Below are positions 46,601-52,837 of a stretch of 64,000 nt of DNA, piece by piece. Under the pieces are notes generated by a model that saw nothing but the letters and a program-made list of their open reading frames with translations, did not search any database and was not told the DNA's origin. Origin of the DNA: Ruminococcus sp. (GTDB lineage: Bacteria > Bacillota > Clostridia > Oscillospirales > Acutalibacteraceae). Position numbers and translations under genes: made by a program. The DNA lies in the NCBI GenBank assembly GCA_017404665.1, contig JAFRBX010000079.1, positions 29,451 to 93,450 on the forward strand, given 5' to 3'. Numbering within the stretch: the first letter of the stretch is position 1; each line of letters opens with the position of its first letter.

Positions 46601-47248
46601 TCATTCAAATCGATGTACTTCCTCAAATACACAGATCAGCTTGTCGCTGATGGCGCTGTCACGATGCAGGCTGCCGAAATACCATTTCTTCCACCGGGTA
46701 TTATGCATCACCGTGTCTAGAAATATGTTCAGATCGTTGATTTCGGCACTTCTGTCGATCATACGCTTGACGGAGGCTGGAGCCTCATGGGTGACGATCA
46801 GGTCGACCCGCCGCCGCTGTTCTTCAAGATTAACGACAGCGTATTCCAGCTCTTCATCTGTAGGCATGGAAGGGGTGCGATTTGTTTCGTCTGCTTCGGG
46901 AAGAAGACCGCCTCCGAGCGCAAAAATCGTCTTACCCTCAATGGAATAGAGCTCTCCCCGGTTCAGACAATAGATATTATCGGCAATCTTCCGCGCCGTT
47001 CCTTCGTGATAGTTGACTTCATCATACTTTTTCAGTCGCTCGAAGTTCTCATGAGTTCCTTCAACGAATAGAATGTCAAATTTCTTTTTGCTGAGCTTTT
47101 TCAGATTTTTGACCTCATCCTTAGAATCATCCCAGATAAAGCCGAAATCTCCTGTTATGATCAGCGTATCGCCTTTTTTCAGATGGTCAAGACGCCTTTC
47201 ACTGAAAATTTCTATATCTCCGTGCGTGTCTCCTGTGATGTATATCAA
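46601..47248 (-). CDS. calcineurin-like metallophosphoesterase
   Basis: A 215-residue protein with the dinuclear-metal motifs in order: GDTHGD (residues 6-11), GDFGFIWDD (~34), GTHENF (~63; H in place of N-H pair), and THEAPAS (~152) near the end. There is no final GHxH that is typical of full members, only a degenerate GSLHRDS (~193). It is cytoplasmic, with no signal peptide. Substrate unknown; relatives hydrolyse phosphodiesters or phosphomonoesters. AGGAGGAAC lies upstream on the minus strand (near 47255). Confidence 0.85.
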   Translation of the reverse strand: MIYITGDTHGDIEIFSERRLDHLKKGDTLIITGDFGFIWDDSKDEVKNLKKLSKKKFDILFVEGTHENFERLKKYDEVNYHEGTARKIADNIYCLNRGELYSIEGKTIFALGGGLLPEADETNRTPSMPTDEELEYAVVNLEEQRRRVDLIVTHEAPASVKRMIDRSAEINDLNIFLDTVMHNTRWKKWYFGSLHRDSAISDKLICVFEEVHRFE

Positions 47249-47383
47249 ATTGTTCCTCCAAAAAACTTGTATTTTTATGAACTTTGTGATTGATATCAGT
47301 CGGCAAATAGTGTAAAATAAATATGTATATAAGTAAATTATGATTCTTCTTTAACATTATAACATACCCTAAAAGGAAATACT

Positions 47384-48733
47384 ATGAATAAAAGATTAAA
47401 ACTTTTGTTGTCATGTGTCTTGATTTTTGCAATATTTGTCAGCAGCTTTGTTCTTCCCGCGTCATCCTTTGAAACCGACGTGAAGACTTCGACCGCTGAT
47501 ATGCTTCTTGTCAATATTGATACCGATACTGTCGTATTTTCTCAAAAGCCCGATAACATGTGGTATGCCGGTTTTTTGTCGGAGCTGGTGACTTTCCTGG
47601 TTGCGTATGAAATGATCGACGATCCCGTTCAGATAACCTATAAGGTAGAGAGCTCTTTTCCCTCGTCGCTCCCGCAATCTGACGGTTCACTGAATCCGTA
47701 TATCGGCAAGGAATTGACCGCCAAAGATCTGATGGCAATCATGCTGCTCACATCCGGAAGCGACGCCGCTTATGCATTGGCTGACTTGGCAAGCAGCGGT
47801 GACAGAACGGCTTTTGTACAGGAAATGAACGATAAGGTATCGGCTTTGGGGTGTAAAAACACCGGTTTTGTCAGCCCCGGCTATAACGGTACCAGCGACC
47901 AGTACACTACCTGCCGAGACCTGTACACTATTTATATGGAAGTTTTGAATAATGAGTATTATCGTGAGTTTATGGACGCCGAACCGTTAAGCTATATTCC
48001 TCCGAGCCTTTATAATGAGGACGATAAGAGTGCGAACGACGCTTTTACGGTATACTCTGAAGCATCTATTCTGAATGAAAACAGCCCGTATTATTTCCGT
48101 TACGCCAATGACGCGAAATATTCTCATACCGACTCGACATTTGCCGGTCTGGTTGTGACAACTACCTACCGCGGCAAGAGCTACTTTTTTGCCGGTCTGC
48201 TCGGAAAAAATGAAAGTGAAGAAAATGTCAATTCGGATGCTAAAAAGCTGACGACATGGGCGTATCTGAATCTTTCTGACCGCAAGGTTGTCAACTCGGA
48301 CGAAGCGCTGTCGCAAATCAAAATAAAAACTGATTGGGGCGATTATTCTGTCGATCTTCATCCGTTTAACTCTGCGTTCAAAACCATGCCCAACGACTAT
48401 GATGAAGATATGCTTTCCTATGAGTATGATATTCCCGAATTTGTACAGACGCCGATTGTGATGGGGCAATCCGCGGGTAAAATGAAGTTAAGCTACGATG
48501 GCAATGAGATCGACGATATTAATTTGATCGTCAACTCCGACGAGGGGATCGATATGCTGCCGGACGTTGGACGCTTCTCTACGTATGTTTACAAGCAACT
48601 GATGCGTTTTGAAGTGAACCTTGATGATGAAGCCGATGATAAGAATCATGTCGATGATAATGAAAGCAAGACAGCTGCAGCTGAGAAAACATCTGAGGCG
48701 GAAGTGTCACAGACAAAGGCTACGGAGGGGTGA
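47384..48733 (+). CDS. D-alanyl-D-alanine carboxypeptidase (S11)-like protein lacking catalytic residues
   Basis: A 449-residue exported protein with a signal peptide (residues ~1-28). Residues ~36-280 have the S11/PBP5-type layout: ADMLLVNIDTDTVVFSQ, then SGSDAAYALADLA, MNDKVSALGCKNTGFVSPGY and an ARD-like CRDLYTIYM. The catalytic SxxK box (normally PASxTK) reads AGFLSE at 62-67, giving F64 and E67. The SxN box is S124-G-S126, and the KTG position reads HTDST. A degenerate C-terminal domain and a Ser/Glu-rich tail follow, without the usual C-terminal membrane anchor. Probably a non-catalytic, D-Ala-D-Ala-binding or regulatory protein. Confidence 0.8.
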   Translation: MNKRLKLLLSCVLIFAIFVSSFVLPASSFETDVKTSTADMLLVNIDTDTVVFSQKPDNMWYAGFLSELVTFLVAYEMIDDPVQITYKVESSFPSSLPQSDGSLNPYIGKELTAKDLMAIMLLTSGSDAAYALADLASSGDRTAFVQEMNDKVSALGCKNTGFVSPGYNGTSDQYTTCRDLYTIYMEVLNNEYYREFMDAEPLSYIPPSLYNEDDKSANDAFTVYSEASILNENSPYYFRYANDAKYSHTDSTFAGLVVTTTYRGKSYFFAGLLGKNESEENVNSDAKKLTTWAYLNLSDRKVVNSDEALSQIKIKTDWGDYSVDLHPFNSAFKTMPNDYDEDMLSYEYDIPEFVQTPIVMGQSAGKMKLSYDGNEIDDINLIVNSDEGIDMLPDVGRFSTYVYKQLMRFEVNLDDEADDKNHVDDNESKTAAAEKTSEAEVSQTKATEG

Positions 48734-48737
48734 TACA

Positions 48738-50066
48738 ATGAACAAATTCCTTCGATGTGTCATTTTCATTCTTTCACTCGTGCTGATAACAATGTTTGTT
48801 TGCGCCGTTCCCGCTTCTGCACTCACCTTCGACTGTGAGGTGGAACAGTATTCCGATACACTGTTGATGGTCAATCTGGATACGGGAATGGAGGTCTTTG
48901 CAAAAGAAGCGGATACCAAGCGTTATCCCGCTGCTTTGACTAAGGTGATGACTTATATTATCGCCGCCGAATACTTTGATGACTTTGATACCGAGATTCC
49001 CATCAAACAATCCTGTATTGAGAATGTCGTCAGCCAGGGTATGTCATGCTCAGGTGTCGACTGGTATACTGGTGAGACACTGACGGTGGAAAATTTGCTG
49101 TACGCGATGATGCTGCCCACCGGTCATGACGCGGCAATGGTCTTTGCCGATTATATCGGCGAAGGAAATATTCAGACGTTTGTGGATATGATGAATGTGA
49201 AGGCTGCCGAGTTAGGATGTGAAAATACACACTTTACCAATCCCTTCGGTACGCATGACGACAACCACTATACCACTGCGCGCGATCTGTACAAGATCAC
49301 AAAATACGCAATGGGTCTGCCGCTGTTTTCTAAAATCTGCGCTACTTCTACTTATTACGCGAGGGAAGATGACGATGTTCCCTTCATAACCACCAACTGG
49401 ATGATCGACCCCGGCAGAGGCGGAGAGTATTATTATGTCTACGCGACCGGCGTCAAAAACGGTACGACTCAGCAGGCAGGACGATGTCTGATTGCAAACG
49501 CTGTCTATGACGGCTACGCCTACATGTGCATTTGTCTGCACGCTCCCTATGATGATAACAAGGATGAAAATGAGCAGTACTGTATGATTGAGGCGGCTAA
49601 TATGTTCCGATGGGCATTTTTAAATCTGTCCTTTGTCACTCCCGTGACTAAGGATACGCCGATTTGTGAGCAAAAAGTAGATCACGCGTGGGATACCGAA
49701 AGCATTTTGCTGGTGCCCGAATCAGATTTTAACGTGATCCTGCCGGATGGTTATTCTCAGGGAGACGTGCGCATCGTTCCCGACAGTACCGACGCAGTCA
49801 GCGCGCCGATTAATAAGGGCGATATCGTAACGACCGCGACCGTCTATTATAAGGATGAACCGTTCACACAGATCAATCTTGTCGCGAACGAAAGCGTAGG
49901 CGTGAGTCCGATCCTTTATACTACCGATACGATCCGAGGAATCCTGACTTCTCCTTGGTTTTTGATATCAGTCGGTCTGGTCGTTGTTCTGTTCATCATT
50001 TACGTTTCTGTTTCGTCCTCCTACGCGAAAAAGCGCAGACAGGAACGGCAAAAGAAAAAACGTTAA
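48738..50066 (+). CDS. second S11 D,D-carboxypeptidase-like protein with altered active site
   Basis: A 442-residue paralog of the preceding protein, four bases downstream, with a signal peptide (~1-28; AVPASA before the cleavage site) and a C-terminal transmembrane helix (~400-425) with a basic tail. The S11 fold markers MNVKAAELGCENTHFTNPFG and TTARDLYKITKYA are strong. The active-site box reads PAALTK (64-69), so the serine is A66 while K69 is kept; SxN reads T128-G-H130 and KTG reads K240-N-G242. ATG 48738 follows GGAGGGG. Likely a pseudoenzyme; retained lysine leaves some doubt. Confidence 0.82.
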   Translation: MNKFLRCVIFILSLVLITMFVCAVPASALTFDCEVEQYSDTLLMVNLDTGMEVFAKEADTKRYPAALTKVMTYIIAAEYFDDFDTEIPIKQSCIENVVSQGMSCSGVDWYTGETLTVENLLYAMMLPTGHDAAMVFADYIGEGNIQTFVDMMNVKAAELGCENTHFTNPFGTHDDNHYTTARDLYKITKYAMGLPLFSKICATSTYYAREDDDVPFITTNWMIDPGRGGEYYYVYATGVKNGTTQQAGRCLIANAVYDGYAYMCICLHAPYDDNKDENEQYCMIEAANMFRWAFLNLSFVTPVTKDTPICEQKVDHAWDTESILLVPESDFNVILPDGYSQGDVRIVPDSTDAVSAPINKGDIVTTATVYYKDEPFTQINLVANESVGVSPILYTTDTIRGILTSPWFLISVGLVVVLFIIYVSVSSSYAKKRRQERQKKKR

Positions 50067-50071
50067 TAATT

Positions 50072-50111
50072 CAATCGGCATGGGCTATCCGTGCCGATTG
50101 TTCATTTTTTT
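50072..50111 (+). terminator. terminator after the S11-like pair
   Basis: CAATCGGCATGG pairs with CCGTGCCGATTG (one G-U) around GCTAT, then TTCATTTTTTT. Confidence 0.9.
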
Positions 50112-50199: not shown

Positions 50200-51324
50200 A
50201 TGAAATCCAAATTAGCTTGGATACCGTTTATTCCTTTGGCATTGATCGCCTGCTTTCTGAAGATCGGACGGGAGTTTTTGCCTAATGGCGCCGTTATGGG
50301 TTTGAGCGCGCTGAAGCTTGAATATTTATTCTTGGGCTGCGTCGCGCTGATTTTCGTGTTTTCTGTTGTTTTTTGCTTGATTGATAGAAAAATTGCCTCA
50401 TATTATTTGCCTCGCCGCAATTTCATCGCGGGTATTTTAGGATTGCTGCTGGCGCTATTACTGGCTGCCGACGGTGCTGATTCCTTATTCCTTACCTTCA
50501 GTTCGGGCGCGATCAATATGCTGGATCTATCAGGCTCAATATTATCGATCCTGTCCGCCGTTGTGTTTGTCGTATTGGGACTCCGTCACTCCTTCCGCTA
50601 TGAAGAAGGCAAGCATTTTTCACTGCTGAACGTACTCCCGGCGCTGATGTGCGGCGTTAGAATGATATTGTCTTTTGTACAGTTTACTACGATTTCAATT
50701 CGTCTTGCTGACGTCAGCGGACTGATATGTTATATTTTCGCAACGATGTTTTTCTTCAACTATGCGATCATACTGTCGGTGATCAAATCGAAAAATGCTG
50801 TAAAAAACTGTTTCATCTTCGGTTTACCCGCTGCGGCAGTAATGATTCCCAGCGGTCTTTATTCGCTGTTGTTCTCATTCAATGCTGAACAAATCACGAA
50901 GAACCTGCAGCCTCTTTCGATCCTTTTGATGGGTTTGTATATCCTGACGATTCTGATAGAGCTTTCCTTTTTCGTCCGTGACAGAGACAGCGTTGAGCTG
51001 GTTCTCAATGACGCGCCTGCTGTAGATGTTTCGAAGGAAAAGGTAGAAGGTTTTATCGCCAGTAATCAGGGCGAAGATGATAACGACTCTGATCGGGATG
51101 ACTCTCATCTTGATGCGCGGGATACAGAAGGCTTTTTGTATCAGGAGTTCCATGCAGAGGATGAGGAGCCTGAGGAAAGTGAAGAGAAAAAGAATGACGC
51201 TGAACTGTATCTTACCGATATCTCAGAAGACGCTGATGAAGAAAACGACAGACCGAAGGATTATGAATCCCGACTTGATGAGATCGATAAGCTGATTATT
51301 GATATTAACGGTCAATCCGACTGA
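50200..51324 (+). CDS. polytopic membrane protein of unknown function with acidic tail
   Basis: A 374-residue protein with about seven transmembrane helices within residues ~5-255, then a long, strongly acidic cytoplasmic tail (~265-374) rich in Asp, Glu and Ser (DDNDSDRDDSH, EEPEESEEKK, DADEENDR). ATG 50200 lies seven bases after GAGGAG; ATG 50194 and an earlier in-frame start at 50170 are less likely. I do not recognise a family. It lies between the S11-like pair and the dockerin protein, so a cell-envelope role is plausible. Confidence 0.7.
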   Translation: MKSKLAWIPFIPLALIACFLKIGREFLPNGAVMGLSALKLEYLFLGCVALIFVFSVVFCLIDRKIASYYLPRRNFIAGILGLLLALLLAADGADSLFLTFSSGAINMLDLSGSILSILSAVVFVVLGLRHSFRYEEGKHFSLLNVLPALMCGVRMILSFVQFTTISIRLADVSGLICYIFATMFFFNYAIILSVIKSKNAVKNCFIFGLPAAAVMIPSGLYSLLFSFNAEQITKNLQPLSILLMGLYILTILIELSFFVRDRDSVELVLNDAPAVDVSKEKVEGFIASNQGEDDNDSDRDDSHLDARDTEGFLYQEFHAEDEEPEESEEKKNDAELYLTDISEDADEENDRPKDYESRLDEIDKLIIDINGQSD

Positions 51325-51442
51325 CTGTACGTCTGACTGTTTTACAACTTCTATTGCATTTTCCTCGCTAATATATGATATCCCGATACCTAATGTAAAT
51401 CACCGGTTAATTGTCGATAATTTCCGAAAGGAGGATAACAGT

Positions 51443-52837
51443 TTGAAAAAACTATGTTTTCTGTTAGCTTTAGTGCTGTTGTCTTCGTTTATTACGGTGC
51501 CTGTAGAAGCGGCACACTCCGATTTTGACGTGCAATCCGGTATTTTGGTAAAGTATAACGGCACAGGTGCAGAGGTAACGGTACCGGATTATGTGACGGC
51601 AATCGGAGCTTCTGCCTTTGAAAACAACATAAATATTCGCGTTATCACACTGAATGCCAATGTATATTCGATTGGCGAACGAGCGTTTTACGGCTGTTCT
51701 TCGCTTGAAAGTGTCCGTTCCGGAGACGGTATTGTTGAGATCGGCGATATGGCTTTTCGCGGAACACCGTATCTGGAAATGTCCACTGATAAATATATGA
51801 TGCTTGGTAAAGTGCTGTTGTGGTATAACGGTACGTCTCCGAGCGTTACGATCCCTTCGCGCTGTACTTCTGTAGCGTCCTATGCCTTTGCACGGTGTGA
51901 CTATCTCCAATCATTTACGGCGTATGAAGGGCTGATCAGTGTGGGAACGGGTGCATTCTACGGCTGTTCCTCACTGGAAAGCGTTAACCTTCCGTCTACC
52001 GTAAGTGAGATCGGCGCCTATGCGTTTGATGATACGCCGTATCTGCGCAGCGCGGGAGAATTTGCCTCTGCAGGAGATGGCATTCTGATCCGCTATCAGG
52101 GCAGCGAATCGGACGTTATGATACCGGATACAATCCGCAGGATCGCTCCTCATGCGTTTGTCAGTTCGAAGGTGACCTCGGTTAACATCCCTGACAGTGT
52201 ATATGCAATAGATCGATATGCTTTCGCAGACTGCGTCGGTTTGAAGACTCTTGATTTGAATAACGGACTGATTTCTATCGGAGACGGCGCTTTCCGAGGA
52301 TGCAAATCGCTCAGGGAATTTATTGCGCCCACATCCCTTTCCTATATCGGTCAGCAGGCATTTTGCGGCGACTCAGCGATCGGCAGCGCCTCTGTACGCG
52401 GCAATGATCTTTCGGTATCTTATCATGCTTTTCAGGATTGTACAGGGTTAAAATACGTCCTGTTATCTGACGGCGTTTGTGCGATATATGACAACGCTTT
52501 TGACGGCTGTACTGCTCTGGAGGGGATTTCCATTCCCGCTGACGTCAGCAGGATCGGGACATCGGCGTTGTCCGGCTGTGATAAAGCGGTCGTTTGTTGC
52601 AACCAGGATTCTCCGGCATACAGTGTTTTGTCTTCTCATGAGATCAGCACAGTGATCGGCGACGTCGATTCGGATGGTTCCCTTAATATTATCGACGCGA
52701 CAGGTATTCAGATGTTCATTGCGAATTTACGAACTCTTAACGGTGCGCAGACCGCAGCCGCAGATATGAACTCCGACGGTGAGATCAATATTGTCGATGC
52801 TGTTAAGGCGCAGATGAAAATTGCGCAGTTGGAGTAA
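51443..52837 (+). CDS. secreted leucine-rich-repeat (BspA-type) protein with type I dockerin
   Basis: A 464-residue exported protein starting at TTG 51443, eight bases after AAAGGAGG; a signal peptide covers ~1-24. Residues ~40-385 are BspA/TpLRR-type repeats with recurrent IGxxAFxGCxSLxSV patterns. The last ~60 residues form a dockerin: two calcium-loop repeats, DVDSDGSLNIIDATGIQMFIA and DMNSDGEINIVDAVKAQMKIA (shown here by key words DVDSDGSLNIID and DMNSDGEINIVD), joined by a linker. It should bind a cohesin on a scaffold outside the cell (cellulosome or amylosome). No cohesin lies in this window. Confidence 0.9.
   Translation: MKKLCFLLALVLLSSFITVPVEAAHSDFDVQSGILVKYNGTGAEVTVPDYVTAIGASAFENNINIRVITLNANVYSIGERAFYGCSSLESVRSGDGIVEIGDMAFRGTPYLEMSTDKYMMLGKVLLWYNGTSPSVTIPSRCTSVASYAFARCDYLQSFTAYEGLISVGTGAFYGCSSLESVNLPSTVSEIGAYAFDDTPYLRSAGEFASAGDGILIRYQGSESDVMIPDTIRRIAPHAFVSSKVTSVNIPDSVYAIDRYAFADCVGLKTLDLNNGLISIGDGAFRGCKSLREFIAPTSLSYIGQQAFCGDSAIGSASVRGNDLSVSYHAFQDCTGLKYVLLSDGVCAIYDNAFDGCTALEGISIPADVSRIGTSALSGCDKAVVCCNQDSPAYSVLSSHEISTVIGDVDSDGSLNIIDATGIQMFIANLRTLNGAQTAAADMNSDGEINIVDAVKAQMKIAQLE

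Follow-up and report, generated by a model that had tools for sequence, protein, structure and literature searches.

A tandem pair of S11-type D,D-carboxypeptidase homologs with broken catalytic motifs in Ruminococcus

We analyzed a 64,000-nucleotide stretch of a Ruminococcus sp. contig (JAFRBX010000079.1; the window), in which two adjacent genes encode homologs of the S11 (PBP5/DacA-type) D,D-carboxypeptidases whose catalytic motifs are broken. The two proteins, P1 (449 residues, 47384..48733) and P2 (442 residues, 48738..50066), are encoded head to tail on the plus strand with a spacing of 4 bases. Neither carries the full SxxK, SxN and KTG triad in any relative examined, both are under purifying selection, and in P2 the constraint has shifted to the C-terminal domain and the membrane helix. 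The explanation that we favor is that P2 is probably a membrane-anchored pseudoenzyme that serves as a scaffold or regulator and binds a partner, and that P1 is its coupled soluble companion.

Catalytic motifs and architecture of P1 and P2

Both proteins matched the Pfam family PF00768 above its cut-off of 27.6 bits (P1, 73.1 bits, E 3.2e-20; P2, 128.1 bits, E 4.8e-37), which places them in the S11 family and, together with the aligned motifs, bears out an earlier note on this DNA that had described tandem S11-type proteins with broken motifs. The intact frames and ribosome-binding sites that it reported were also found: both open reading frames (ORFs) are open, and Shine-Dalgarno-like sequences (AAAGGAAA and GGAGGGG) precede both starts. 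For P2, which was delineated by its ORF, Pfam, structure-sequence alignment and hydropathy, the start is the ATG at 48738, and the TTG start at 48621 in the ORF list makes the frame too long. P2 has the architecture of PBP5/DacA, with a signal peptide-like start, the S11 domain, a PBP5_C domain (residues 301-388, 49638..49901, plus strand; Pfam E 4.7e-07) and a C-terminal membrane anchor formed by a hydrophobic span at residues 399-430 (49932..50027, plus strand) and a basic tail, the first and last of these elements being recognized by hydropathy. P1, which is predicted to be secreted on account of its signal peptide-like N-terminus, departs from this architecture. PBP5_C was not called by Pfam in P1, although the C-terminal half of P1 aligns with PBP5, and a C-terminal membrane helix was present in none of the 41 P1 proteins longer than 400 residues, while all 44 P2 proteins have a C-terminal hydrophobic helix.

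The six motif places were read from alignment, all on the plus strand. At the place of SxxK in an active S11 D,D-carboxypeptidase, P1 has FLSE (residues 64-67, 47573..47584), with F64 and E67 at the Ser and Lys positions, and P2 has ALTK (residues 66-69, 48933..48944), with A66 for the serine and the lysine kept as K69. At the SxN place, P1 has SGS (residues 124-126, 47753..47761), in which the serine is retained and the asparagine is gone, and P2 has TGH (residues 128-130, 49119..49127). The KTG place is KYS in P1 (residues 245-247, 48116..48124) and KNG in P2 (residues 240-242, 49455..49463), so that the aligned strings read GFLSE/SGS/KYS and AALTK/TGH/KNG. The other three S11 proteins of the same genome are intact (SITK/SAN/KTG in one, STTK/SGN/KTG in two). 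F64, E67, A66, TGH and KNG are all as the earlier note gave them, while the HTDST that it took for the KTG box of P1 lies three residues too far along; the true place is K245-Y246-S247, and HTD follows it. Its view that the boxes are lost in both proteins holds, with corrections: SxxK and KTG are lost in P1, where the SxN serine is retained (as in 24 of 43 P1-type rows), and the boxes are broken in P2, where the SxxK lysine is retained in 44 of 44 rows and the KTG lysine in 37 of 44, with glutamine in the other 7.

We also scanned both protein sequences for a relocated catalytic set, and nothing fitting was found in either. In P1, SxxK and SxN strings are absent at the aligned places and [KHR][TS]G is absent throughout; its stray strings are six SxxK (at 284 and beyond) and four SxN/YxN (at 102, 216, 240 and 294). 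In P2, [KHR][TS]G and SxN/YxN are absent throughout, and the sole SxxK string, at 428, lies at the end of the membrane helix.

Motif states and descent among relatives

Relatives were counted in 161 genomes of the genus. Most of these are split into tens to hundreds of contigs, and a gene missing from such a draft is weak evidence; the named records are mostly rumen and gut Ruminococcus metagenome-assembled genomes. The P1 query (E 1e-48) matched 44 genomes; in G087 (33%) the match is the single intact protein, leaving P1-type proteins in 43. Two of these rows (G081 and G132) run off their contigs and were kept, with missing motifs counted as gaps. The P2 query (E 1e-95) gave matches of at least 57% identity in 44 genomes, the pair genomes, and of 43-50% in 104 more, with 13 of 161 without a match. 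We refer to the single same-locus S11 protein as S and to an unlinked intact paralog (L003) as L3; the L3 query (E 1e-70) left 7 of 161 genomes without a match, and the L3 class comprises 62 genomes, from which 57 L3 sequences were collected. Eight loci (L036-L043) are the same sequences as G073, G071, G148, G083, G017, G125, G141 and G093 and were excluded from the counts. The ortholog search that the earlier note had proposed thus showed that the pair with its broken triad recurs, in 43 genomes for P1 and 44 for P2. Because the full triad is present in 0 of 43 P1-type and 0 of 44 P2-type proteins, compared with 102 of 105 S rows (104 genomes) and 57 of 57 collected L3 proteins, the joint motif loss in P1 and P2 is beyond chance.

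The individual substitutions vary among these rows. In P1, the nucleophile place (43 rows) is taken by Tyr in 22, Ser in 8, Thr in 4 and others in the rest, and the SxxK lysine place by Glu in 21, Asn in 9, Ala in 3, Arg, Thr and Val in 2 each, Asp, His and Lys in one each, and one gap. The sole P1 with this lysine, from genome G067, also has the serine, but MYS at KTG. The KTG threonine place of P1 has Tyr in 30, Phe in 9, Ile in 2, Leu in 1 and one gap; it is aromatic in 39 of the 42 rows read and threonine in none. The P2 nucleophile place (44 rows) is Ser in 24, Ala in 19 and Asn in 1. At SxN of P2, the serine is lost and the middle Gly is kept in 44 of 44, and the third place is His in 25, Asn in 8, Asp in 8 and Gln in 3; the KTG threonine place is Asn in 43 and Gly in 1. 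On the proteins' own trees, we counted 5 state changes at the P2 nucleophile, 12 at the P1 nucleophile and 10 at the P1 lysine, and because these states change repeatedly, the exact substitutions are not what selection keeps. What is fixed in P2 is the loss of the SxN serine together with the change of the KTG threonine to asparagine. The earlier note had held that free variation of the lost positions among orthologs would speak for decay, and this is half the case: the P1 nucleophile and lysine and the P2 nucleophile wander, while the two P2 losses just named (44/44 and 43/44) do not.

These states bear on the idea that catalysis was changed rather than lost, in which the SxxK-keeping P2 orthologs would perform covalent chemistry with a rebuilt site. 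The serine in 24 of 44 P2 proteins, the His, Asp, Gln or Asn at SxN and the Asn at KTG would suit such a site, as would the invariance of the SxxK lysine and the near fixation of the threonine-to-asparagine change, and three genomes of another family are similar. The nucleophile, however, changes five times on the P2 tree and is alanine in the window copy; therefore, serine chemistry cannot be the shared function, and we regard changed catalysis as very improbable. The three similar proteins (L313-L315, from G040, G185 and G184, 3 of 3 genomes searched in another family of the order) resemble P2 in having lost the SxN serine and KTG while keeping the SxxK lysine; their motifs are STVK, GAN for SxN, and NYG or NAG for KTG. 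They differ from P2 in that the nucleophile is kept, one S11 copy lies in the examined stretch, and identity to P2 is about 31%. They may represent another, independent instance in which canonical catalysis was lost.

In S11 trees built from subsets of 95 and 57 rows, P1, P2 and L3 each formed one group with support of 100, and P2 grouped with S (SH-aLRT 96 and 97). Judged from the trees and the locus, P2 is the ortholog of the intact single S protein beside recG. P1 has a long stem (1.1) and no firm placement in the trees, and it may have arisen otherwise than by simple tandem duplication. A RecG tree was made from 108 of 120 RecG frames (>500 residues), which cover 19 of 44 pair and 89 of 104 single-copy genomes; on it, the 19 pair genomes form one clade (99), requiring one change in all, while the patchy distribution of L3 requires 15.

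The locus is syntenic across relatives, and P1 and P2 are tightly coupled. The order recG, metallophosphoesterase, P1, P2, membrane protein, leucine-rich-repeat (LRR) protein and thrS was found in eight named loci where contig ends allow, and again in eight further pair genomes where contigs reach, save that the LRR gene was not found in G023. In 12 single-copy genomes inspected, there is one S11 protein at the locus, adjoining recG in 10; in the other two (G010 and G020), the contig stops before recG and thrS is present. In the examined stretches, recG accompanied S in 90 of 104 genomes and P2 in 27 of 44, where the stretch or contig is often short; it accompanied none of the 57 L3 copies, whose stretches are short. 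The distance from the P1 stop to the estimated P2 start, taken as the ATG closest to the position that aligns with the start of the P2 described here, is 2-5 nucleotides in 32 of 41 genomes (range -8 to 115). No P1 without P2 was found among the genus genomes; G063 has P2 and lacks P1 at the locus.

Of the 44 pair genomes, 40 carry L3, versus 17 of 104 single-copy genomes; the four pair genomes without it (G011, G067, G088 and G104) are all drafts of 66-92% completeness. We read the locus enzyme as having become dispensable where L3 exists. L3 as the cause of the motif loss was considered and rejected: it is associated with the loss, but it requires 15 changes on the RecG tree, the 17 single-copy genomes keep both S and L3, and shared ancestry makes the counts non-independent. 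The three S rows without the full triad are L059 (G020) and L203 (G076), which have SLTM with SGI or SGS, and L246 (G079), which has AALTK; all three genomes are outside the L3 class.

Selection and the shift of constraint in P2

P1 and P2 are both under purifying selection. Median ratios of nonsynonymous to synonymous substitution (dN/dS; NG86, pairs with dS 0.05-1.2) were 0.19 for P1 (41 pairs) and 0.133 for P2 (89), compared with 0.233 for L3 (121), 0.113 for S (69) and 0.085 for RecG (16), so that in both proteins the catalytic residues are lost while the remainder is held by selection across species. Relative to RecG, in 25-29 of the 44 pair genomes, distances were 3.84 for P1, 1.50 for P2, 2.37 for L3, 1.65 for the metallophosphoesterase and 3.11 for the downstream membrane protein. 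Within the pair genomes, P2 as a whole is under tighter constraint than L3, and it comes close to its intact ortholog S in this respect; P1 is fast-evolving yet clearly selected.

These data leave little room for neutral decay, in which redundant copies would drift once L3 took over. The occurrence of L3 in 40 of 44 pair genomes, the fast evolution of P1 and the variation at catalytic positions are what drift would produce, but internal stops were found in 0 of 43 P1-type matches, and among the 44 P2-type matches only G073 and G148 count a single TAA, which is the natural terminal stop. With dN/dS well below 1, P2 evolving no faster than L3 and constraint gained in the C-terminal domain and helix, we consider decay extremely improbable. 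Selection for a non-catalytic task, which the earlier note had suggested with D-Ala-D-Ala binding or hydrolase regulation as possible examples, is supported by frames that are open in 43-44 genomes, by these dN/dS values and by P2 being held at least as tightly as L3 in pair genomes.

As reference positions, we took the 62 at which S (95%) and L3 (90%) are each fixed. P2 has lost 8 of them (66, 102, 128, 130, 172, 241, 285 and 365), including 4 of 7 motif residues (hypergeometric p 0.004), and the 31 lost by P1 include six motif residues (p 0.05). Positions 102 and 172 of P2 probably correspond to groove residues of PBP5 (a serine of GSS, and L153).

Compared with its S11 domain, the PBP5_C domain and the membrane helix of P2 show unusual conservation. 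In 36 pair genomes, median distances for P2 and L3, respectively, were 0.457 and 0.495 in the S11 domain, 0.375 and 1.123 in PBP5_C, and 0.339 and 1.79 in the helix. The ratio of PBP5_C to S11 distance was 0.86 for P2, 2.12 for L3 in the same 36 genomes and 1.95 for S, and the helix-to-S11 ratio was 0.76, 3.39 and 2.67; for P1, a separate comparison gave a C-domain ratio of 1.28. The contrast between P2 and the intact groups was present in every distance band with data (C-domain ratio, 0.81-1.05 vs 1.55-2.43; helix ratio, 0.63-0.90 vs 1.83-3.91), and 200 half-samples of genomes all gave the same sign, the smallest difference being 0.86. The genome pairs in these comparisons are not independent of one another. 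dN/dS in the S11 domain, C-domain and helix was 0.134, 0.114 and 0.090 for P2, 0.180, 0.282 and 0.413 for L3, and 0.090, 0.121 and 0.164 for S. Because dS is even along P2 (0.80, 0.80 and 0.77), the rate shift is a matter of constraint at the protein level. With the constraint now on the C-domain and helix, binding of a partner is a better fit than binding of a ligand in the former groove.

Ligand binding in that groove is what a sensor or decoy would need, with uncrosslinked D-Ala-D-Ala stems bound uncut and P2 relaying a signal or shielding the stems. The frame of the groove is retained in P2, since the SxxK lysine (44/44), the lysine at the KTG position (37/44) and the middle Gly of SxN (44/44) are kept, and S11-domain conservation is the same in P2 and S (0.76 and 0.76). 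The lost motif residues, on the other hand, are those that act on or contact the substrate, the nucleophile and SxN positions wander, the extra constraint sits in the C-domain and helix, and the KTG threonine place of P1 is aromatic in 39 of 42 rows read. We therefore consider a sensor or decoy unlikely, although less so than either changed catalysis or decay.

Proposed roles, known systems and neighboring genes

We propose that P1 and P2 are S11 pseudoenzymes made as a coupled pair. P2 descends directly from a D,D-carboxypeptidase-type protein whose motif-intact form is still found at this locus in related species, and L3, present in nearly all pair genomes, could supply the lost activity; S and L3 are presumably active enzymes, judging from their intact motifs. 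After the loss of catalysis, constraint on P2 shifted to the C-terminal domain and membrane helix, which may bind a partner in the membrane or the wall machinery, and P2 could serve as a membrane-bound base that holds the soluble, secreted P1 at the membrane surface. A more specific version, which we put forward tentatively, is a non-catalytic penicillin-binding protein (PBP) complex in which P2 sits in a membrane complex by way of its slowly evolving C-domain and helix, P1 is docked to P2, and the two degenerate folds serve the wall machinery as a structural module or a sensor.

Several observations weigh against the scaffold explanation. The nucleophile serine is present in 24 of 44 P2 orthologs, some of which could still be acylated, and the evidence for contact between P1 and P2 is their gene order. 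P1 evolves fast (3.84 times RecG) and has lost 31 of the 62 fixed positions, and its sister grouping with P2 is neither supported nor rejected (approximately unbiased test, p 0.086; P1+L3, p 0.42). With RecG as the yardstick, P2 evolves a little faster than S does in single-copy genomes (1.50 vs 1.28). In the S11 domain alone, P2 diverges about as much as L3 (0.457 vs 0.495); in the band of smallest distances, P2 has a C-domain ratio of 1.05 and so does not fall below 1; and in dN/dS the P2 contrast is weaker against S than against L3. The AlphaFold models, made from 9-row alignments, are of low confidence (mean predicted local distance difference test score, pLDDT, 54.1 for P1 and 42.9 for P2), too low for the superposition on PBP5 that the earlier note had proposed and for claims on the groove or interfaces.

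Foldseek of the low-confidence P1 model (pLDDT 54) returned PBPs with E down to 8e-13, but with TM-scores by query length of 0.31-0.36 among the matches listed. The top row was chain B of 9a4z, a YxkC-DacA complex modeled by an integrative approach, and this is a hint that proteins of the DacA type have partners; a literature search found no paper on this complex. In alignments with solved structures, also with 9-row profiles, P1 was best aligned to Haemophilus influenzae PBP5 (3a3j, residues 40-388), and P2 to Bacillus subtilis DacB (3mfd) and Streptomyces K15; P2 was also aligned to 3a3j over 40-381. With PBP5/DacA-type enzymes (Escherichia coli PBP5 1nzo, 3a3j, 3mfd and K15 1skf), the pair has S11 homology and a signal peptide-like start in common, and P2 also the C-terminal membrane anchor; P1 and P2 differ from them in the broken SxxK, SxN and KTG, in forming a tandem pair and in the move of P2 constraint to the C-domain and anchor. 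S and L3 are alike to P2 in architecture, and S also in locus (identity to P2, 43-50% for S and 38% for the genome's own L3), but their motifs are intact and their C-domain and helix evolve fast.

A precedent of another kind is CspC:CspA, of the subtilisin-like family. These two Clostridioides difficile pseudoproteases form a signaling heterodimer (PMC12880746). The likeness to P1 and P2 lies in two pseudoproteases with a non-catalytic role in Bacillota, and the difference in the protease family, in being soluble and in the role in germination; it is a likeness of kind, and no homology is claimed. By analogy, the pair might be a spore-specific wall regulator acting in the cortex or in germination. 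The heterodimer precedent and the presence of Spo0A in 147 of 161 genus genomes would allow this, but Spo0A occurs alike in pair and single-copy genomes, the conserved neighbors inspected (recG, metallophosphoesterase, membrane protein, LRR protein and thrS) are not spore genes by name, and CspC:CspA is alike in kind, not in family. We consider a spore role improbable, somewhat less so than changed catalysis. As a trait for discriminating among genomes, Spo0A was rejected, as it does not separate pair from single.

If such a non-catalytic PBP complex exists, a carboxypeptidase was converted once, in a gut Ruminococcus-type clade, into a scaffold, and the membrane anchor of P2 was promoted from a tether to an interaction surface. 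PBP-derived pseudoenzymes seem little described, and no paper on an S11-family pseudoenzyme was among the matches listed in our open-access literature searches. One locus allows an apparently active enzyme to be compared with its non-catalytic descendant, the constraint moving from the catalytic center to the C-domain and anchor, and the poorly understood PBP5_C domain and anchor gain a testable role in partner binding. The pair is also a warning, since family-based annotation would name P1 and P2 by an activity that both probably lack.

Promoter- and terminator-like sites are frequent by chance in the P1/P2 region. A promoter-like site upstream of P1 (TTGATA-17-TAAAAT, 47290..47318, plus strand) is a match to consensus only, in a scanned region with 18 such matches against 10.2 expected. 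Directly after P2, a pattern match gave a terminator-like hairpin of 13 pairs with a T-rich tail (50072..50100, plus strand); the region has 5 such matches against 4.7 expected, and this one has by far the longest stem. Its position 3' of P2 suggests that P1 and P2 may form a two-gene operon.

Next to the pair, the metallophosphoesterase-like gene (46601-47248, minus strand), below the Pfam cut-off, is divergent from P1; the examined stretches contain it alongside P2 in 39 of 44 genomes but alongside S in only 19 of 104. The multi-pass membrane protein at 50200-51324, fast-evolving, with an acidic tail and no Pfam family, directly follows P2 in the pair loci whose contigs reach, and is by position only a candidate partner of P2. 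A BspA-type LRR protein with a C-terminal dockerin (51359-52837) lies near the pair in most reachable pair loci. In some genomes of the genus, larger S11-domain proteins, with open frames of 652-809 residues, were seen in G009:C12, G008:C57, G002:C78, G016:C13 and G011:C168.

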